From Herminiimonas contaminans (GTDB taxonomy: Bacteria > Pseudomonadota > Gammaproteobacteria > Burkholderiales > Burkholderiaceae_D): 64,000 nucleotides of DNA. Position 1 is the first letter of the stretch, and each line of letters starts with the position of its first letter. Shown here one piece after another: positions 14,699 through 24,226 of the stretch. The DNA lies in contig NZ_JADOEL010000013.1 of the NCBI RefSeq assembly GCF_015645465.1, positions 1 to 64,000 of the forward strand, read 5' to 3'. Both the position numbers and the translations under genes were made by a program. The notes beneath the pieces were generated by a model. It was not told the DNA's origin. It made no database searches and saw only the letters and a program-made list of their open reading frames with translations.

Positions 14699-14712
14699 TT
14701 GATATGGCGCAA
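14699..14712 (+). promoter_or_regulatory. FNR/ANR-type site upstream of azurin
   Basis: TTGATATGGCGCAA. The first half-site is the perfect FNR TTGAT; the second reads CGCAA instead of ATCAA. The same variant occurs at 15881 and 17806. Its centre is about 163 bp upstream of the azurin start; a -10-like CACAAT lies at the spacing expected for class II activation. The rest of the 344-bp gap (14525-14868) shows only the Fur box. Confidence 0.65.
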
Positions 14713-14868
14713 ACCACCCGTTGCCTATATTCGGCACAATCCATATCAGATTGCATATGTCCGACATAAGGAATCGCATATGTGTATATCGGCCTGCAAT
14801 GTGAGAATCGGAAGCCTGAGGAAGGTCACAGCTCCGATGCGATGAACCAATAATTGAAGGAGAAGAGA

Positions 14869-15321
14869 ATGAAAGTATGGAAACCAGCACTCGTATTGAT
14901 GATGGCAGGCTTGAGCAGCCATGTAATGGCGGCAGATTGTTCCGTCGAGATCAGCAGCAATGATGCTATGCAGTTCGATAAGACCAGCATTTCGGTGCCG
15001 CAAAGCTGCAAACAATTTACCGTCAAGCTCAAACACAGCGGCAAGATGGCTAAAAACATCATGGGCCATAACTGGGTGTTGACCAAGACAGCCGATATGC
15101 AAGGTGTGGCCAGCGACGGTATCGCGGCAGGACTGGACAAGAGTTACCTGAAGGCGGGTGATGCACGTGTGATCGCGCATACCAAGGTGATCGGTGGCGG
15201 CGAGAGCGATACGATCAGCTTCGCTCCATCCAAGCTGAAAGCAGGTGAGGCTTACTCCTTCTTCTGCTCCTTCCCTGGTCATTCGGGCATCATGAAAGGC
15301 ACAGTACAGGTAACGAAGTAA
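14869..15321 (+). CDS. azu: Azurin, periplasmic type I copper protein
   Basis: A 150-residue precursor; the signal peptide ends at HVMA, mature azurin begins ADCSVEI. Copper ligands are visible: His in NIMGHNW, Cys and His in FFCSFPGH and Met in SGIMKG. The disulfide Cys pair of azurins (DCSVEI and QSCKQF) is present. The ATG follows AAGGAGAAGAG. Azurin carries electrons in the periplasm, classically to nitrite reductase or oxidases. It is monocistronic here; the FNR-type box implies low-oxygen induction. No denitrification genes are in the window. Confidence 0.96.
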
Positions 15322-15399
15322 GTTAGTCTTTACAGGTCGCTGACGAATACAAATTTGTCAGCGACATATCATCCCGCTTTATTTCAAAAGCAAATCCAC

Positions 15400-15804
15400 T
15401 CAGTTAAACGTCAGGTCGGCCGGTATGCTGTTCGGGCTGCGCGACATTTGGTAGCTATACCAGAGACTCTGCGCGATTCTTTGTGCCGAAGCATACGCGC
15501 GCTCACCCATGGCCTGATTCGGCTGTTCTTTTGTAGTTTCCAGAAATAAGGCCAGCCAGCGCTGGAACAATGCTTCGTCCAGATGCGGCAAGGCGATGTG
15601 TTTTTGCATAGGTGTACCGCTGTAGCGCCCGGTACCGCGAAGTATGGATGACCAGAAATCCACCAGTTTGCTCAAATGATGATCCCAGTCATCGACCAGG
15701 CCATTGAAGATGGGGCCGAGTACTTCATCGCGCCGGACTTTGGCGTAAAAAGCGTGTACCAGTGTTGCGACCTCGTCGTCAGTGCATAGATCTTCTGCAG
15801 GCAC
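15400..15804 (-). CDS. Group III truncated haemoglobin
   Basis: A 134-residue globin of the 2-on-2 group III type: DDEVATLVHAFYAKVRRDEVLGPIFN, DDWDHHLSKLVDFWSSILRGTGRYSGTPMQKHIAL and LPHLDEALFQRWLALFLET. The likely proximal haem ligand lies in the KHIALPHLDEALF segment. The open frame begins with TTG at 15894, but that codon is inside the FNR-type box. A GTG at 15804 follows GGAG at good distance and matches the usual family start, so I use it. Proposed roles in the family are oxygen or NO handling; its low-oxygen control and closeness to azurin and cytochrome bd fit. Confidence 0.88.
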   Translation of the reverse strand: MPAEDLCTDDEVATLVHAFYAKVRRDEVLGPIFNGLVDDWDHHLSKLVDFWSSILRGTGRYSGTPMQKHIALPHLDEALFQRWLALFLETTKEQPNQAMGERAYASAQRIAQSLWYSYQMSRSPNSIPADLTFN

Positions 15805-15880
15805 TTTATTCTCCAGATGGGTGATGGTTAGATATGATAGACCGCGTACTCTATTAACGCTCAGTCGGACGCGGTTGGAA

Positions 15881-15894
15881 TTGATCTGGCGCAA
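15881..15894 (-). promoter_or_regulatory. FNR/ANR-type site upstream of the globin gene
   Basis: Plus strand TTGATCTGGCGCAA, differing from the azurin and cydD boxes in one base. Centred about 84 bp before the globin GTG. On the minus strand a TTAATA/TAATAG -10-like element lies roughly 30 bp downstream, as for class II FNR promoters. Confidence 0.68.
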
Positions 15895-15898
15895 ACTT

Positions 15899-16795
15899 TT
15901 ATGTCTGACCGGCAGCTTTGAATATGTCCTGCATCCATTCGGTAAACACGCGTATACGGGCTGATAACTGGCGGTTTTGCGGATAAAGCACCGAGAGTGG
16001 CATGCCGGGAGGTGGCGTCTCAGGCAGGATCAGTTGCAGGCGACCATCCTGTATTTCCTGTTCGATGTGATAACGCGGCATTTGCACAATACCTATGCCG
16101 GCCAGCGCGCAACCGGTGTAGACCTTGGTGCCGGTCACCGAGATGGCGGTCGGCAGTACGATGGATTGCATGCGGCCGTCCACCATGAATTCCAGCGGAA
16201 AGGGTTTGCCGCTGGCGCTGGAGATGTAGTTGACTGCCTTGTGTTGTGCCAGATCTTCGATGCTGCGCGGCTGGCCGTAGCGGGCCAAGTAAGCCGGGCT
16301 GGCACAGGTCACTTGTTCCAGCATGGCGATGCGACGTGCGATCAGCGATGAATCCTGTGGTGTGCCGCCGCGCAGTACGCAATCTATGCCTTCGCGCACC
16401 AAGTCGACCAAGCGGTCGCTTTCATCCATATGCAGCTCTATACCCGGGTAGCGGGCGAAGAAGGCGGGCAGGGTAGGCACCAGAAAGTGGGCTGCCACCG
16501 TGCCCTGCACGCCGACGCGCAACAAACCTTTAGGCGCCGTATTACGGAACGCGCCATCCGCTTCTTCGATATCGGTTAACAGGCGTACGCAGCGGGTGTA
16601 ATAGGCGTCGCCATCCAGCGTCGGCGTTACCAGCCGTGTCGTGCGATTCAGCAGGCGTGAGCCCAGGCGTTCTTCCAGGCGTGTCATTGCATTAGTGACG
16701 GTGGCGCGTGGCAGCTGCAAGTCTTCGGCAGCCTTGGTAAAGCTGCGGCGCTCCATGATGCGCACGAAAATCTGCATTTCCTGGAATCTATCCAT
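15899..16795 (-). CDS. LysR-family transcriptional regulator
   Basis: A 298-residue LysR regulator: winged helix-turn-helix in residues 1-60 (MQIFVRIMERRSFTKAAEDLQLPRATVTNAMTRLEERLGSRLLNRT) and a periplasmic-binding-like effector domain (about 90-295). It belongs to the CrgA/AaeR-like subgroup by style. It is transcribed away from an SDR gene across a 115-bp gap, the classic LysR arrangement, so the SDR is the likely target. The effector is unknown. Confidence 0.9.
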   Translation of the reverse strand: MDRFQEMQIFVRIMERRSFTKAAEDLQLPRATVTNAMTRLEERLGSRLLNRTTRLVTPTLDGDAYYTRCVRLLTDIEEADGAFRNTAPKGLLRVGVQGTVAAHFLVPTLPAFFARYPGIELHMDESDRLVDLVREGIDCVLRGGTPQDSSLIARRIAMLEQVTCASPAYLARYGQPRSIEDLAQHKAVNYISSASGKPFPLEFMVDGRMQSIVLPTAISVTGTKVYTGCALAGIGIVQMPRYHIEQEIQDGRLQLILPETPPPGMPLSVLYPQNRQLSARIRVFTEWMQDIFKAAGQT

Positions 16796-16812
16796 GATTT
16801 ACGGCCTTATTG

Positions 16813-16827
16813 TTGATAAATATCGAA
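16813..16827. promoter_or_regulatory. Candidate LysR operator between divergent genes
   Basis: TTGATAAATATCGAA contains the T-N11-A LysR box with the inverted repeat GATA-AA-TATC. It sits in the gap between the LysR gene and the SDR gene, close to the LysR start, as expected for autoregulation. Confidence 0.5.
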
Positions 16828-16910
16828 TAATGATGTCGATTCTAGCCGGATTATCTTTTGTTTGCTTTGTTGCACACTCTCGTCACTCCCACTCATTAAG
16901 GAAGAAGACC

Positions 16911-17651
16911 ATGAGCAAGCAAGCAAAAAAAGTAGCCATCATCACCGGCGCATCACGTGGCATAGGTGCAGCGATAGCAGAGCGCCTGGCGAATGACGGG
17001 TTTGCGGTTGTCATTAACTACGCAAGCAGCGCAGGCGAGGCCGATGCCCTGGTCGCCAAATTGCAGGCAGCGCAACATGAGGCGATCGCAGTGAAAGCAG
17101 ACGTCGCGAACTCGGCCGATGTGCGCCGCCTGTTTGATGAAACAGAACAGAAGCTGGGCAAGGTCGATGTGCTGATCAATAACGCCGGGATTTTGCAGAT
17201 GGCTGCATTGGCCGATACCAGCGACGAATTGTTTGAGCGTACGTTCAGTATTAATGTGCGCGGCACCTTCAATACCTTGCGCGAAGCAGCGACGCGTCTG
17301 AACGATGGTGGCCGTGTGGTGAATTTTTCCAGCACGACGGTGGCGATGAGTTTGCCTAACTATTCGGTGTATACCGGCAGCAAGGCAGCGGTCGAAGTGT
17401 TGACTCCTATCTTCGCGAAGGAAATGCGCGGTCGTAATATCACCGTCAATGCAGTGGCACCGGGACCGGTTGCGACTGATCTGTTCTTCAATGGCAAAAC
17501 CGAAGCGCAGATACAGCAGCTCGCCAACATGCCACCGCTGCAAAGACTGGGACAGCCGGATGATATCGCGGCGGCTGTGTCCTTTCTGGTAGGGCCTGAT
17601 GGTGGCTGGATTAACGGTCAGGTCTTGCGTGCGAATGGTGGCCTGGCATGA
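16911..17651 (+). CDS. SDR-family oxidoreductase
   Basis: A 246-residue short-chain dehydrogenase/reductase. NAD(P) site TGASRGIG near residues 12-19, NNAG at about 90, catalytic Ser in NFSST and Tyr-x3-Lys in YSVYTGSK, and the C-terminal GGWINGQVLRANGG typical of classical SDRs. The ATG at 16911 follows AAGGAAGAAG; longer in-frame starts would run into the LysR control region. The substrate is unknown; it probably reduces a ketone or quinone under control of the divergent LysR protein. Confidence 0.9.
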   Translation: MSKQAKKVAIITGASRGIGAAIAERLANDGFAVVINYASSAGEADALVAKLQAAQHEAIAVKADVANSADVRRLFDETEQKLGKVDVLINNAGILQMAALADTSDELFERTFSINVRGTFNTLREAATRLNDGGRVVNFSSTTVAMSLPNYSVYTGSKAAVEVLTPIFAKEMRGRNITVNAVAPGPVATDLFFNGKTEAQIQQLANMPPLQRLGQPDDIAAAVSFLVGPDGGWINGQVLRANGGLA

Positions 17652-17725
17652 AGTTGTAATCGCCGGATCAGTGCTGCGGAGTTATTCACGATCTGCGTGC
17701 GACGCTAAACAAAACGTGAAGATGA

Positions 17726-17762
17726 AAAACATCGCTTCCTGTCGGAGGCGATGTTTTTTTTA
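17726..17762 (+). terminator. Rho-independent terminator after the SDR gene
   Basis: Stem AAACATCGC...GCGATGTTT with loop TTCCTGTCGGAG, followed by eight or more T. Confidence 0.85.
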
Positions 17763-17805
17763 TGTCTCTCATTCCTGAAATGAATATGTGGTAAAGCACA
17801 TAAAT

Positions 17806-17819
17806 TTGATGTGGCGCAA
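17806..17819 (+). promoter_or_regulatory. FNR/ANR-type site upstream of cydDCABX
   Basis: TTGATGTGGCGCAA. A CATAAT -10 element begins at 17841, close to the spacing of a class II FNR promoter with the site centred near -41.5. This predicts transcription from about 17854 and a leader of some 170 bases to cydD. The remainder of the 382-bp gap holds only the upstream terminator. Confidence 0.7.
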
Positions 17820-18033
17820 ATGTTGAAATTTTTGGCGCGCCATAATGCTTGCCATGTTGTGACGCCGTCAACGGCTGTGCATGACGCAGAACTGATATGG
17901 CTAAACCATCCCCATCTGATCCTGTTTATGCAGGAAGGCCGGGCGTATGCTGTGTTCCACCCCATCGAATACGATGTAACGAAAGAAGTAGTGTCACACA
18001 AGAGTGTGGCAATGCGTAATAATGCAAAGCACT

Positions 18034-19710
18034 ATGCATACCAAACCAGCCGCTTTCCAGCGATTGCGATCCGGTACAGGATTCGAGGTCGGAAGTTTGC
18101 TGCAAGTCTTTGCATCCTTGCTGTGGTTGCCACAAGCCGGTCTGTTGGCCTATGCACTGCAGCGATTGATGGATGGTGCTGGTATTGCCGCTGTCTATCT
18201 TCCCGCCGCCCTGATTTTTATCCTTGGTTTAATCCGTTCTGTTTGTGATGCCGTAGGTGTGCGTCGCATATTCAAAACCGCACGTGCTGAACTGTCCCTC
18301 ATGCGCGAGCAAGTCGCTGCATCACTCGCGGCACGCTCACCACTGGATGCCGCCAGGCCTGCATCCGGCCTGGCTGCCAGTGTGATGGCAGAGCAGGCGG
18401 AAGCTGTCATCCCTTATCTCACCCGTTATCGTCCGGCCCGCTTGCGCACTATGATCGTGCCGCTCGCCATCCTCATCGTCGTGACTCCTTTGTCCTGGAT
18501 CGCGGCACTGGTTCTGCTGGTCGCGGCACCGCTGATTCCTGTTTTCATGGCACTGGTCGGCTGGCGCGCCAAAGCGGCGAGCGAAGCGCAGATGGTGGAG
18601 ATGGGTGGCATGAATGCCTTCTTGCTGGATCGCCTGCGCGGCCTGGCGACCTTGCGCACATTGGGTGCGATCGAAGCGACCGCCTTGCGTTTGCATGCGT
18701 CAGCACAGGCGTTGCGCATGCGGACGATGGCCGTGCTGCGCATTGCCTTCCTGTCGTCAGCGGTGCTCGAATTGTTTGCCGCACTCGGTGTTGCCATGGT
18801 GGCGGTGTACATCGGATTCCATTTGCTCGGACAGCTCGAATATGGTGCCTGGGGTACACGCCTGACCCTGGGGCAAGGGGTGTTCATCCTCTTGTTGTCA
18901 CCCGCTTTCTTTGAACCTTTGCGTGAGTTGTCTGCGGTCTGGCATGACCGTGCAGCAGGTGAAGCTGCGCTGGATGCTCTCGACAATTTAACTGCAGACG
19001 GTTTGCTATTGCCGGATGCAGCAACAGCTTCAAATACTGCAGCAGCGACAGCGCGAGCTGCGCCGACAGTCCTTATTCAGCAACTGTCCTTTGCACATCA
19101 GGGCAGCAGTACATCTGTGTTTGATCGCTTGGATTTGCAGATTGCTGCCGGGGAGCGCGTTGCCATCATGGCCGCCAGTGGTGGCGGTAAATCCAGTTTG
19201 CTGGCGCTGATCGCTGGTCTGTTACCGCTAGCACACGGAAGCATCACTATTGATGATGTGCCTTTGTCGGCAAGCAGTGTGCGTGGCCTGCGCAAGCGCA
19301 TGGCATGGATAGGGCAGAAGCCACACATCTTTGCTGGTTCGGTGCATGCCAACGTGGCATTGCGTCGGGATGGTGTAAGCGCAACTGATGTTGCTGCTGC
19401 GTTGAAGTTTGCGGAGCTTGAAGGTGTTGCACAGGCACGTCCCGGTATCGCACTGGGCGAGGGTGGTGGCGGTTTGTCCGGTGGCGAAGCAGTGCGCCTG
19501 GCACTGGCGCGTGCAGCAGCGGATGCACATGCGGATTTATTGCTGGTCGATGAACCAACTGCGCATCTGGATCAGGCAACGGCACAACAGGTGACGGAAG
19601 CTTTGCTGCAACTCGCGCAGGGTAAAACCATGATCGTGGCGACGCATGATCCGGTACTGGCAGCGCGCATGGATCGCGTGATCCTGCTGCAGGCTGAGGA
19701 GCAAGCATGA
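18034..19710 (+). CDS. cydD: Heterodimeric ABC exporter CydDC, subunit CydD
   Basis: About 558 residues: six-helix ABC transmembrane domain (to about 310), then the nucleotide-binding domain with Walker A MAASGGGKSS, signature LSGGEAVRLALARA and Walker B LLLVDEPT. CydDC exports glutathione and cysteine to the periplasm and is needed for assembly of cytochrome bd. The start is uncertain: GTG 18004, ATG 18022 and ATG 18034 are in frame without a clear ribosome site. It overlaps cydC by four bases and heads the operon. Confidence 0.93.
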   Translation: MHTKPAAFQRLRSGTGFEVGSLLQVFASLLWLPQAGLLAYALQRLMDGAGIAAVYLPAALIFILGLIRSVCDAVGVRRIFKTARAELSLMREQVAASLAARSPLDAARPASGLAASVMAEQAEAVIPYLTRYRPARLRTMIVPLAILIVVTPLSWIAALVLLVAAPLIPVFMALVGWRAKAASEAQMVEMGGMNAFLLDRLRGLATLRTLGAIEATALRLHASAQALRMRTMAVLRIAFLSSAVLELFAALGVAMVAVYIGFHLLGQLEYGAWGTRLTLGQGVFILLLSPAFFEPLRELSAVWHDRAAGEAALDALDNLTADGLLLPDAATASNTAAATARAAPTVLIQQLSFAHQGSSTSVFDRLDLQIAAGERVAIMAASGGGKSSLLALIAGLLPLAHGSITIDDVPLSASSVRGLRKRMAWIGQKPHIFAGSVHANVALRRDGVSATDVAAALKFAELEGVAQARPGIALGEGGGGLSGGEAVRLALARAAADAHADLLLVDEPTAHLDQATAQQVTEALLQLAQGKTMIVATHDPVLAARMDRVILLQAEEQA

Positions 19711-21413
19711 CGATCTGGCGTGATCTCGCTCCGGTGCTGCGTTTGTTTGCTGACGCCTGTCGCAATAAATTGCTATTGGGTGCGCTGCTGGCAGCGACCA
19801 CCGTATTGTCCGGCATGGCTTTGCTGGGTTTGTCGGGCTGGTTTATTACAGCGACTGCGATCGCTGGTTTGAATACGACACTGGCATTTACCTTTGATGT
19901 TTTCATGCCATCGGCTGGTATACGTCTGTTGGCACTCGGGCGCACTGCAGCACGCTATGGCGAGCGACTGGTGACGCATGATGCGACGCTGGAAGTGCTG
20001 GCGAGTTTGCGCGTGCGTCTGTTTCGCGCCTGGGCCAGGCCGCAGGCAGCGCGTCGTTTGCTGGCGCGACCAGCGCAGTTGTTGTTTCGCCTGACAGGCG
20101 ATATCGATGCACTGGATTCCTTGTACCTGCGCGTACTGGTGCCGCTCGCGTCCGCATTGTGTGCGGCGCTCGCGCTCGGCGTGGCGCTGGGCTTGTTGCA
20201 ATGGTGGCTGGGCCTGGCACTTGCAGCGTGGCTGATTGTCACTGGTTTGTCGATTGCACTGCGGGTGGCGCAGAGGGCGAAGCCGGATGCACGTCGTCGC
20301 AGCTACGCACTGGAAGCCTTGCGCGCACGCAGCATCGATCTGGTTGCAGGGCAGACCGAATTAATCATGGCCGGGCAACTGGATGCGCAGAAGCAGGCAT
20401 TGGCCATCGCCGATCAGCACCTGGCACGCGCGGATGATGCCTTGAACCGACTTGAGGCGCAGGCTGGTATGGCTTACAGCATAGTCGGCACCATCACGCT
20501 GACCGCCACCTTGCTGCTGACGGCAGCGCTGGTCAGTAAGGGTGTGCTGAATGTGCCGCTGGCGGCGCTGGCCTTGTTACTGGTGCTGACCGCGACCGAG
20601 CCTTTTTCGGCGCTACGACGTGGTGCACTGGAGCTGGGGCGTACCGTATTGGCAGCGCGCCGCCTGGGTGCACGCATACAGGCTGCCGACGAAAAAACTG
20701 CTGTTGCGCCGCAGCCGCCTGCTGGCCTGGTACTGCAGTTGACGAATGTCAGCGCCCATCCTGCTGGTGCAGACGCCGATGCCCAAGAGGCCAATATCCT
20801 GAAGAATATTTCGCTGGCATTGTCAGCTCATGAGCGGGTGGCGCTGATCGGTGCCAGCGGTGCCGGTAAATCCACTTTGCTGGCCCTGATCGCTGGCGAA
20901 CTGTCGGCACGCTCCGGCAACGTTTGCGTCGCCCCACATAGCTTGTTGACGCAGCGCACCGAATTATTCCAGGACAGCTTGCGCGACAACTTGCGCGTGG
21001 CAGCTCCGGATGCAGACGATGCGCGGCTGTGGAAGGTGCTGCACAGCGCCGGGCTGGCCGACGATGTTGTAAATATGCCAAACGGGCTGGATACGCGCCT
21101 GGGCGAGGGTGGCCTCGGCTTGTCTGGTGGCCAGTTGCGTCGCCTGGCGCTGGCGCGCCTGTTACTGAGAGATGTATCGCTGTGGCTGCTGGACGAGCCT
21201 ACCGAAGGGCTGGATCAGGCCACGGCGCACGATGTTTTACTAGGTCTGGATACGCAAGCCGCAGGGCGCGCTTTCCTTTTGGCAACCCATGTCCGGCGTG
21301 AAGCTGAGCTCGCGGACCGCTTGGTTTGTTTGCAACATGGGCGTATTGTTGCCGAAGTGAAGCGTAGCGATGCAGATTTTGTAGGTGTGTTGAACAGTTT
21401 GCGGCCGGATTAA
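19707..21413 (+). CDS. cydC: Heterodimeric ABC exporter CydDC, subunit CydC
   Basis: 568 residues: exporter transmembrane domain (about 1-310) and ATPase domain with Walker A GASGAGKSTLL, signature LSGGQLRRLALAR and LWLLDEPT. It pairs with CydD to export thiols that set periplasmic redox state for haem bd assembly. ATGA overlap with cydD and only a 57-bp gap to cydA indicate one transcript. Confidence 0.94.
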   Translation: MTIWRDLAPVLRLFADACRNKLLLGALLAATTVLSGMALLGLSGWFITATAIAGLNTTLAFTFDVFMPSAGIRLLALGRTAARYGERLVTHDATLEVLASLRVRLFRAWARPQAARRLLARPAQLLFRLTGDIDALDSLYLRVLVPLASALCAALALGVALGLLQWWLGLALAAWLIVTGLSIALRVAQRAKPDARRRSYALEALRARSIDLVAGQTELIMAGQLDAQKQALAIADQHLARADDALNRLEAQAGMAYSIVGTITLTATLLLTAALVSKGVLNVPLAALALLLVLTATEPFSALRRGALELGRTVLAARRLGARIQAADEKTAVAPQPPAGLVLQLTNVSAHPAGADADAQEANILKNISLALSAHERVALIGASGAGKSTLLALIAGELSARSGNVCVAPHSLLTQRTELFQDSLRDNLRVAAPDADDARLWKVLHSAGLADDVVNMPNGLDTRLGEGGLGLSGGQLRRLALARLLLRDVSLWLLDEPTEGLDQATAHDVLLGLDTQAAGRAFLLATHVRREAELADRLVCLQHGRIVAEVKRSDADFVGVLNSLRPD

Positions 21414-21470
21414 ACACGGTGAGTAAACAGTTGAATACGACGAAGAATTCAAGTCATTAAAGGGAGCTAC

Positions 21471-23075
21471 ATGGAACTCGATATTGTTTCTTTATCACGG
21501 CTACAGTTCGCCGCCACGGCGCTGTATCACTTTCTCTTCGTGCCCCTTACCCTGGGGCTGTCCATCCTGCTGGCTATCATGGAGACGGTCTATGTCATGA
21601 CCGGCCGCGTCATCTGGCGCGACATGACCAAATTCTGGGGCACGCTGTTCGGGATTAACTTTGCGATGGGTGTTGCCACCGGTATCGTGATGGAGTTCCA
21701 GTTCGGCATGAACTGGAGCTACTACAGCCACTACGTCGGCGATATCTTCGGTGCACCGCTGGCGATTGAAGGTTTGATGGCCTTCTTCATGGAAGCTACC
21801 TTTGTTGGTCTGTTCTTCTTCGGCTGGGACAAGCTATCCAAGGTCGGACATCTGATCACGACCTGGGCGGTTGCCATCGGTTCCAACTTCTCTGCATTAT
21901 GGATTCTGATTGCGAATGGCTGGATGCAAAATCCGGTCGGTGCCGTCTTCAATCCCGACACCATGCGTATGGAAGTCAGCGACTTCTTCGCAGTGCTGAC
22001 CAATCCGGTGGCACAGGCCAAGTTTGTGCACACCGTATCGGCTGGCTATGTCGCAGCGTCGATTTTTGTGCTCGGTATCTCGGCCTGGTATGTGTTGAAG
22101 GGACGTCACCTCGATATCGCCAAACGTTCGATGACGGTTGCTGCTTCATTCGGCCTGGCTGCATCGCTGTCGGTCGTGGTGCTGGGCGACGAGAGCGGTT
22201 ATCTGTCGACTGAACATCAAAAGATGAAACTGGCTGCGATCGAGGGCATGTGGGAGACACAGGATGCACCGGCGTCTTTCACCCTGATTGGATTCCCGGA
22301 TCAGGAAGCGCGTGAAAATCATTACGCGATTCATATTCCATTCATCATGGGCCTGATCGGTACCCGTTCGCTGGATACCACTATCCCCGGCATCATTGAA
22401 TTGGTCGAGCGCGCCGAAGGTCGTATTTCGAACGGCCTGAAAGCCTACGACGCCTTGCAACAGATACGCGCACAGGGCGGGACAAAAAACATCTCGCATG
22501 AGCTGCGTGCGCAGTTCGAAGACAACGGCGGCGATCTTGGTTATGCCTTGCTGCTGCGGCGCTATGTCGACGATCCGCTGAAGGCGACGCCGGAGCAGAT
22601 CGAGAAGGCGGCCTGGGATACGGTGCCGCATGTGTGGCCGCTGTTCTGGAGCTTCCGCATCATGGTGGCGATCGGCATGTTTATGATCGCGCTGACCGCA
22701 ACTTTCTTCGTGTTGTCGGCACGTCGTCAGCTGGATCGTCATCGCTGGTTGCTGAAGGTCGCTGTATGGGCGATACCGCTACCGTGGATTGCGATTGAAG
22801 CAGGCTGGCTGGTTGCAGAGTTTGGCAGGCAGCCGTGGGTGATTGAAGGCGTATTGCCGACCGCAGTAGCGGTATCCAATCTGGGTATCAAAACGCTGCT
22901 GATCACGCTCGCCGGTTTCGTCGCGATATACACGGTGTTGCTGATCATCGAGTTGAAACTGCTGTTCAAGATCATCCGCAAGGGGCCCGTAGATGAGCAT
23001 GTGCCTGATGAAGGCGTCAATATTGTTCGCGCCAATCCGCCATCCGCACCAACTTCTGTCGTGGAGCCATCATGA
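21471..23075 (+). CDS. cydA: Cytochrome bd ubiquinol oxidase subunit I
   Basis: 534 residues, close to the long Q-loop type of E. coli. The N-terminus ELDIVSLSRLQFAATALYHFLFVPLTLG includes the haem b595/d-region His at residue 20. The conserved Glu in FMEATFVGLFFFGW and the GRQPWVIEG motif late in the protein are present. It oxidises ubiquinol at the periplasmic side and reduces oxygen with high affinity, at the inner membrane. The ATG follows AAAGGGAG. It overlaps cydB by four bases. Confidence 0.97.
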   Translation: MELDIVSLSRLQFAATALYHFLFVPLTLGLSILLAIMETVYVMTGRVIWRDMTKFWGTLFGINFAMGVATGIVMEFQFGMNWSYYSHYVGDIFGAPLAIEGLMAFFMEATFVGLFFFGWDKLSKVGHLITTWAVAIGSNFSALWILIANGWMQNPVGAVFNPDTMRMEVSDFFAVLTNPVAQAKFVHTVSAGYVAASIFVLGISAWYVLKGRHLDIAKRSMTVAASFGLAASLSVVVLGDESGYLSTEHQKMKLAAIEGMWETQDAPASFTLIGFPDQEARENHYAIHIPFIMGLIGTRSLDTTIPGIIELVERAEGRISNGLKAYDALQQIRAQGGTKNISHELRAQFEDNGGDLGYALLLRRYVDDPLKATPEQIEKAAWDTVPHVWPLFWSFRIMVAIGMFMIALTATFFVLSARRQLDRHRWLLKVAVWAIPLPWIAIEAGWLVAEFGRQPWVIEGVLPTAVAVSNLGIKTLLITLAGFVAIYTVLLIIELKLLFKIIRKGPVDEHVPDEGVNIVRANPPSAPTSVVEPS

Positions 23076-24226
23076 TTTTGCATACACTTATCGACTATGA
23101 CATTTTGCGTCTGATCTGGTGGGTCCTGATCGGGGTACTGCTGGTCGGCTTTGCCGTGACTGACGGCTTTGATCTGGGCAGCGGTATTTTGCTGCCTTTC
23201 GTTGGACAAACCGATCTGGAGCGACGCGTCGTCATCAATAGCGTGGGACCAGTGTGGGAAGGCAATCAAGTCTGGCTGATCCTGGGTGGCGGTGCGATTT
23301 TCGCTGCCTGGCCGCAGCTATATGCGGTCGCTTTCTCCGGCTTTTATCTGGCGATGTTTGCCATCCTGACCGGGCTGATCCTGCGTCCGGTTGCGTTCAA
23401 GTTCCGCAGCAAGCGCGAAGATCCGTCATGGCGTGCCCGCTGGGACTGGGTCTTGTTCTTCAGTGGCTTTGTGCCGACGCTGATCTTTGGTGTAGCACTC
23501 GGCAATGTGCTGCAGGGCGTGCCGTTCCGGCTTGAACCCAGCATGCATATTTTTTATGACGGCAGCTTCTTTGGTTTGCTGAATCCGTTTGCCGTGCTGT
23601 GCGGGCTGGTCTCTATCGCGATGCTGGTCATGCATGGTGCTGCATGGTTGCAACTGAAAACAGACGGCGCAGTAGCAGGGCGTGCTCGTAACTATGGCAG
23701 CGCAGCAGCACTCGCTACCATCCTGTTCTATGCAGTGGCTGGCTTGCTGTTGTGGAAGTACATCAATGGTTATCGCATCACTAGCGAGATCGATCCGTTC
23801 GGACCATCGAATCCATTGCTGAAAACCGTCGAAGGTCATGCCGGTGCCTGGTTCGCCAATTACGCCGCGCATCCGTGGACGATGGCGGCACCAGCCGCTG
23901 GCTTTACCGGTGCGCTGGGTGCTTTCTTTGGCTTGCGTTTCCGTCGTGAAATCTTTGCCTTGTTGTGCAGCAGCCTGAGCATCAGCGGCATCATCCTCAG
24001 CGTAGGCGCTTCGATGTTCCCGTTCATCCTGCCTTCATCGATCGATCCGCGCGCCAGCCTGACGGTATGGGATTCATCATCCAGCCATCTGACGCTGTTC
24101 ATCATGCTGGTGGTAACCGCAGTCTTTATCCCGCTGATCGTCGCTTACACCACCTGGGTGTATCACGTGCTGTGGGGCAAGGTGGATGAAAAAGAGATAC
24201 GCGAGGAAACCGGACACGCTTATTAA
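23072..24226 (+). CDS. cydB: Cytochrome bd ubiquinol oxidase subunit II
   Basis: 384 residues, multi-helix membrane protein with the CydB signatures FAVTDGFDLGSGILLPF, NSVGPVWEGNQVWLILGGGA and a C-terminal FIMLVVTAVFIPLIVAYT. It stabilises the haem-bearing CydA. ATGA overlap with cydA shows coupled translation; cydX follows after a hairpin. Confidence 0.97.
   Translation: MILHTLIDYDILRLIWWVLIGVLLVGFAVTDGFDLGSGILLPFVGQTDLERRVVINSVGPVWEGNQVWLILGGGAIFAAWPQLYAVAFSGFYLAMFAILTGLILRPVAFKFRSKREDPSWRARWDWVLFFSGFVPTLIFGVALGNVLQGVPFRLEPSMHIFYDGSFFGLLNPFAVLCGLVSIAMLVMHGAAWLQLKTDGAVAGRARNYGSAAALATILFYAVAGLLLWKYINGYRITSEIDPFGPSNPLLKTVEGHAGAWFANYAAHPWTMAAPAAGFTGALGAFFGLRFRREIFALLCSSLSISGIILSVGASMFPFILPSSIDPRASLTVWDSSSSHLTLFIMLVVTAVFIPLIVAYTTWVYHVLWGKVDEKEIREETGHAY

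Follow-up and report, generated by a model that had tools for sequence, protein, structure and literature searches.

The closest described counterparts of the elements studied here are the FixK2 boxes of Bradyrhizobium diazoefficiens and the targets of Fnr in Herbaspirillum seropedicae and of Anr in Pseudomonas. We compare them with three short boxes that precede azurin, globin and cydDCAB genes in a stretch of 64,000 nucleotides from Herminiimonas contaminans (assembly GCF_015645465.1, contig NZ_JADOEL010000013.1, positions 1 to 64,000 of the forward strand; hereafter the window). The FixK2 box reads TTGA/C-N6-T/GCAA, and its examples include TTGATCCAGCGCAA and TTGACCTAGCGCAA (PMC9104804). 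In H. seropedicae, chromatin immunoprecipitation sequencing (ChIP-seq) and RNA sequencing (RNA-seq) identified ompW, fixNOP, hemN, uspA, aer_4 and cydAB as direct targets of Fnr, and the Group III promoters have hybrid half-sites for which Fnr heterodimers were proposed (PMC5934665). In Pseudomonas, azu and cioA (which encodes a bd-type oxidase) belong to the Anr core regulon, and Anr boxes are carried by these two as well as by hemN, oprG and a chemotaxis gene (PMC6588701). The titles listed in a literature search by genus name included none on FNR in Herminiimonas.

The Herminiimonas boxes are new members of this known FNR/FixK-type kind. They read TTGATATGGCGCAA (azurin), TTGATCTGGCGCAA (globin) and TTGATGTGGCGCAA (cydD), and differ only at position 6, in agreement with the original prediction of three near-identical boxes with one variable central base. 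Like the FixK2 boxes they are 14-base imperfect palindromes of the form TTG(A/C)-N6-(T/G)CAA, and they share the CGCAA half with TTGATCCAGCGCAA and TTGACCTAGCGCAA (PMC9104804). The globin gene lies on the minus strand, so that its box has the opposite orientation to the others and reads TTGCGCCAGATCAA in the globin sense. None of the three falls within a gene called by codon usage, their centres lie 163 (azurin), 83 (globin) and 221 bp (cydD) upstream of the starts used, and their flanks are dissimilar to one another. We consider it very probable that these are FNR binding sites at class II promoters, i.e., ordinary low-oxygen switch sites. The FNR-type assignment is backed by conservation at orthologous promoters, by class II spacing to a -10-like hexamer, by a canonical FNR in the genome, and by the published targets of Fnr, Anr and FixK2. 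The Fnr1/Fnr3 regulons of H. seropedicae, a member of the same bacterial family, have targets in common with this set and likewise hybrid half-sites; however, that species has three Fnr paralogs where we found one, and azurin and globin are absent from the searched text on its regulons (PMC5934665). The motif used for Pseudomonas is TTGATNNNNATCAA, and cioA is repressed by Anr, whereas the class II geometry predicts activation of cydD (PMC6588701).

The evidence from related species comes from 13 genomes of the genus, including that of the window (G000); G002 and G011 are the two nearest species. We looked for TTG-N8-CAA, with any centre, in the regions upstream of orthologous genes. The cydD gene is present in 12 of the 13 genomes and was examined in 11, G004 being left out because a contig end coincides with the beginning of its gene. 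The box is present in 10 of these 11, as TTGATGTGGCGCAA (3), TTGATATAGCGCAA (1), TTGATCTAGCGCAA (2), TTGATCTGACGCAA (1), TTGATGTAGCTCAA (2) or TTGATATAGCTCAA (1). The azurin box was found in 3/4 genomes, and the globin box in 4/13, the fourth of which (G012) has the canonical TTGATTCATATCAA. A genus-wide scan with TTGATNTNRCKCAA gave 80 matches, 48 coding and 32 non-coding according to codon-usage gene calling. Among the non-coding ones, 26 precede cydD (10), azurin (3), globin (3) or a further gene (10), and the other 6 are scattered. This fourth target encodes a PAS-HAMP-MCP protein (Pfam) that resembles the aerotaxis receptor Aer; its site in G000 is TTGATCTAACGCAA, 131 bp upstream (G000:C20:34076). 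An unbiased scan of the aer promoters of the 13 genomes identified the variant box in 10 and the canonical TTGATTTATATCAA in G012, with no box in G007 and G008. A canonical TTGATCTAGATCAA precedes aer in G023, from another genus, and a second aer-like copy in G006 has the canonical TTGATTTTCATCAA. Hence, canonical and variant boxes swap between species at aer and globin, and the comparison of orthologous promoters that the original prediction had proposed as a check supports FNR-type boxes. It does not support the claim of a fixed central TGG: among the 24 boxes at cydD, aer and azurin, T7 is present in 24 and C10 in 23, while TGG at positions 7-9 is found in only 4, and the azurin box of G002 and G011 reads TTGATATTGCGCAA. 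Judged from these sequences, the identical TGG core is a coincidence of the G000 genome.

Three individual sites are worth noting. The aer box of G004 (G004:C15:14633; L149 1501) has a perfect TATAAT at class II spacing. An intergenic TTGATACGGCGCAA lies 164 bp upstream of an apparent aspartate kinase gene (G000:C2:35184; L006 1501-1514), and a ClpB-like gene of G009 has TTGATTTAGCGCAA 124 bp upstream, with no good -10 at class II spacing (G009:C1:2148740; L223 1541).

The position of the boxes relative to -10-like hexamers is the second line of evidence. In G000, the hexamers CACAAT (azurin), GTTAAT (globin), CATAAT (cydD) and TATAGT (aer) would put the box centre at -40.5 to -41.5, which, judged from these predicted hexamers, agrees with class II promoters, whose box is centred near -41.5. 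A hexamer sharing at least 4/6 letters with TATAAT, and so placed that the box centre would fall at -39.5 to -41.5, was found at 23/26 promoter sites in the gene direction vs 6/26 in the wrong direction, and at 1/48 coding sites in each direction. At globin, the distance from box to start differs by ~70-75 bp between G000 and G002/G011, and the distance from box to hexamer is unchanged. In G012, read by eye, the canonical box precedes the same GTTAAT, one base nearer.

Boxes with a fuller second half are also present in this genome. Canonical boxes in G000 precede four genes that, from their translations, we take to be ccoN, hemN, uspA and ompW. We searched 11 regions beside fnr for ccoN and hemN (one of only 958 bases, at a contig end), which were not found in 6 and 4 of them, respectively. 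The half ATCAA is kept in 5/5 of the ccoN loci found in the genus, and (A/G)TCAA in 7/7 of the hemN loci. Of the 24 boxes at cydD, aer and azurin, 20 have CGCAA as their second half, 3 have CTCAA and 1 has ATCAA. In other words, the C(G/T)CAA half, with C10, is present in 23/24 of these boxes vs 0/12 at ccoN and hemN. Further intergenic canonical boxes in G000 are TTGATTTATATCAA and TTGATCCACATCAA (L186, L188; G000:C7:142591, G000:C11:30246).

Which protein could read these sites? FixK2, which is not known to carry a cluster, serves a system with other genes, whereas the putative regulator in Herminiimonas is a 4-Cys FNR. Two proteins of G000 pass the HTH_Crp_2 cut-off. One is a typical FNR (G000:C12:74773-75528) with the N-terminal motif CSTCSMHQLC, the ExxSR helix GNYLGLTIESISRLL, and FNR entries (5cvr/5e44) as its best match in the Protein Data Bank; the helix of the other is unlike that of FNR. 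Two more proteins have a cNMP_binding domain and no HTH_Crp_2 match. The usual recognition-helix pattern is kept in 15/15 FNR-like proteins examined, and an FNR of at least 86% identity is present in 11/13 genomes. The original prediction had considered a variant specificity of the regulator; the usual helix, the canonical boxes in the same genome and the swaps at aer and globin make this unlikely. Autoregulation was also considered and discarded, as none of 15 fnr loci has a box scoring at least 9/10 at a distance of up to 350 bp from the gene.

A different regulator, be it another Crp/Fnr-type protein, a nitric oxide sensor of the NnrR/DNR type or a member of another family, could instead read the asymmetric motif, setting azurin, globin, cydD and aer apart from the ccoN, hemN, uspA and ompW regulon. 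The uneven distribution of the C(G/T)CAA half, the second Crp-type protein of G000 and the aer box of G004, where no FNR ortholog was detected, would all fit such a protein. But G012 has a canonical box at aer and globin, as has G023 at aer, only one of the two HTH_Crp_2 proteins has an FNR-type helix, and G007, which lacks FNR, lacks cydD too and has no box at its aer and globin. We therefore regard a separate regulator as improbable. Even less probable are heterodimers with one Fnr paralog per half, for which speak the proposal made for hybrid half-sites in the H. seropedicae Group III promoters (PMC5934665) and the two or three FNR-like proteins of G006, G009 and G010; at the threshold used, G000 and seven other genomes of the genus have one FNR each, and six of these eight have the box at both cydD and aer.

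If FNR is the regulator, at low oxygen it would take up a 4Fe-4S cluster and dimerise, one subunit sitting on the perfect TTGAT half and the other on the degenerate TTGCG half. At about -41 the dimer would touch RNA polymerase and activate azurin, globin, cydDCAB and the distant gene of the Aer-like receptor. The weaker C(G/T)CAA half would probably lower the affinity, and hence give an oxygen threshold differing from that of the fuller ccoN and hemN boxes. As far as these sequences tell, the weak half is not drifting freely, and is retained promoter by promoter across related species at some promoters, which suggests a tuned affinity. Hexamers of 5 or 6 matches are found at cydD in 7/10 cases and at aer in 9/10, whereas the hexamers of ccoN and hemN have 3 and 4 matches, which could mean that box strength and -10 strength are set together. 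As a general rule this is contradicted by uspA, with a (G)TCAA box and a 5-of-6 hexamer, by azurin and globin, with 4-of-6 hexamers, and by ompW, which has no good hexamer at this spacing. We propose tentatively, and think it rather doubtful, that C(G/T)CAA marks a selected, promoter-locked second class of FNR sites. It would divide one oxygen regulon throughout the genus into full boxes with a weak -10 (ccoN, hemN) and weak halves with a strong -10 (cydDCAB, aer), so that one FNR could serve two oxygen thresholds or two partner requirements. In this genus, four low-oxygen functions (bd oxidase, azurin, globin and aerotaxis) come under one predicted switch, and their promoters offer a natural series for asking if the oxygen threshold of an FNR promoter is set by a suboptimal half-site that has been conserved.

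The literal pattern TTGATNTGGCGCAA has 3 matches in the 4,038,814 bases of the genome, all in the window and spanning 3.1 kb, and 0/100 dinucleotide-preserving shuffles of the window reach this number (mean 0.00), in a test whose pattern was picked post hoc from sites already seen. Being confined to three places, it is not the signature of a wide regulon, and the genome search suggested in the original prediction returned no further member. Still, its concentration before azurin, globin and cydD calls for explanation. At one mismatch there are 15 further places, 14 of them within open reading frames (ORFs) of at least 100 amino acids, some of which may be spurious. Among 60 genomes of relatives, 36 contain exact matches; we examined 50 distinct sites, less than half of the total listed (from G017, one out of 36), and found 39/50 within ORFs of at least 100 amino acids and 28/50 within genes called with the codon usage of the window, a calling less reliable outside the genus. 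In this sample, the sites before globin and cydD in G002 and G011 are those at the same promoters. We fetched 80 cydD loci from beyond the genus and scanned 79, the start of the remaining one being inside the gene. Of the 79, 12 have a TTG-N8-CAA box within 350 bp that matches 8/10 or more consensus letters, one of which, from an uncultured Variovorax, has the exact TTGATCTGGCGCAA and no good -10, and no such box was found in the other 67/79, including most Variovorax and Janthinobacterium loci. The sequences point to a working motif wider than TTGATNTGGCGCAA, about TTGATNTNRC(G/T)CAA, beside TTGATNNNN(A/G)TCAA.

Several observations weigh against reading the boxes as FNR sites or limit the support for this reading. 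The boxes depart from the strict FNR/ANR consensus TTGATNNNNATCAA, with its TTGAT and ATCAA halves: all three have CGCAA as their second half, as originally described, and match 8/10 consensus letters. Looser forms show no clear excess in the window, neither with up to 2 mismatches to TTGATNTGGCGCAA (6 matches, mean 3.42 in shuffles, 13/100 of which reach 6) nor as TTGM-N6-KCAA (5 found vs a mean of 7.78). In the upstream scan, the cydD, azurin and globin genes of G009 all lack such a box even though this genome has FNR, and 9/13 globins lack an FNR-like TTG-N8-CAA box within 420 bp, G001 and G004 among them showing a 9-of-10 near match. Orthologous sites are not independent of one another, so the four promoters of G000 and the turnover cases carry most weight. 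AT-rich intergenic sequence inflates -10 scores. The three exceptions to the 23/26 above all precede cydD (G005, G008 and G012) and have no good -10 at class II spacing. A sigma-70 scan listed no promoter with two hexamers at any of the three boxes; this is to be expected of promoters that depend on an activator and lack a -35, and gives no independent support. Finally, G004 keeps the aer box with only a 22%-identical Crp/Fnr match; this either speaks against FNR or is due to the fragmentation of its assembly into 350 contigs. A chance match or local repeat with no regulatory role, to which the 3.1-kb confinement of the exact string, the lack of excess of looser forms and the mostly intra-ORF one-mismatch relatives might be ascribed, is the least probable explanation of all, given the conservation at orthologous promoters, the fixed spacing to the hexamer and flanks too dissimilar for a repeat.

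Table 1. Predicted and annotated features around the three boxes, in window coordinates.
Feature	Position	Strand	Remarks
FNR/FixK-type box TTGATATGGCGCAA, azurin promoter (predicted)	14699..14712	+	Counterpart in G002 and G011 is TTGATATTGCGCAA
-10-like CACAAT, azurin	14735..14740	+	Box centre would be -41.5; identical hexamer in G002 and G011
Azurin	14869..15321	+	Pfam PF00127; start from codon usage
Globin	15400..15804	-	Pfam PF01152; GTG start from codon usage
-10-like GTTAAT, globin	15853..15858	-	Box centre would be -41.5; identical hexamer in G002 and G011
FNR/FixK-type box TTGCGCCAGATCAA, globin promoter (predicted)	15881..15894	-	Identical in G002 and G011
Terminator-like hairpin between SDR gene and cydD box	17724..17759	+	Weak evidence: 5 such sites vs 3.5 expected by shuffling
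FNR/FixK-type box TTGATGTGGCGCAA, cydDCAB promoter (predicted)	17806..17819	+	Box in 10/11 genus genomes examined
-10-like CATAAT, cydD	17841..17846	+	Box centre would be -40.5
cydDCAB	18034..24226	+	cydD 18034-19710, cydC 19707-21413, cydA 21471-23075, cydB 23072-24226

Pfam confirms CydA, CydB and both ABC proteins of cydDC, as well as the azurin and the bacterial globin. The globin GTG start at 15804 is the choice of codon usage in this genome, and likewise in G002 and G011; from its earliest TTG start, the ORF would overlap the box. A search of the window with Rfam gave no match at gathering score. The predicted cydDCAB leader (17853-18033) is ~180 nucleotides long, about as long as in G011, G002 and G001, and the four share conserved stretches. 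A small gene in this leader was ruled out, its reading frames being broken between the four species. In G003, G006 and G010, no more than 44 bp separate the box from the start used for cydD. The segment 10468-14524, immediately upstream of azurin and on the opposite strand, encodes an extracytoplasmic function (ECF) sigma factor (Pfam), apparently beside FecR and TonB-receptor genes, as we judge from their translations.

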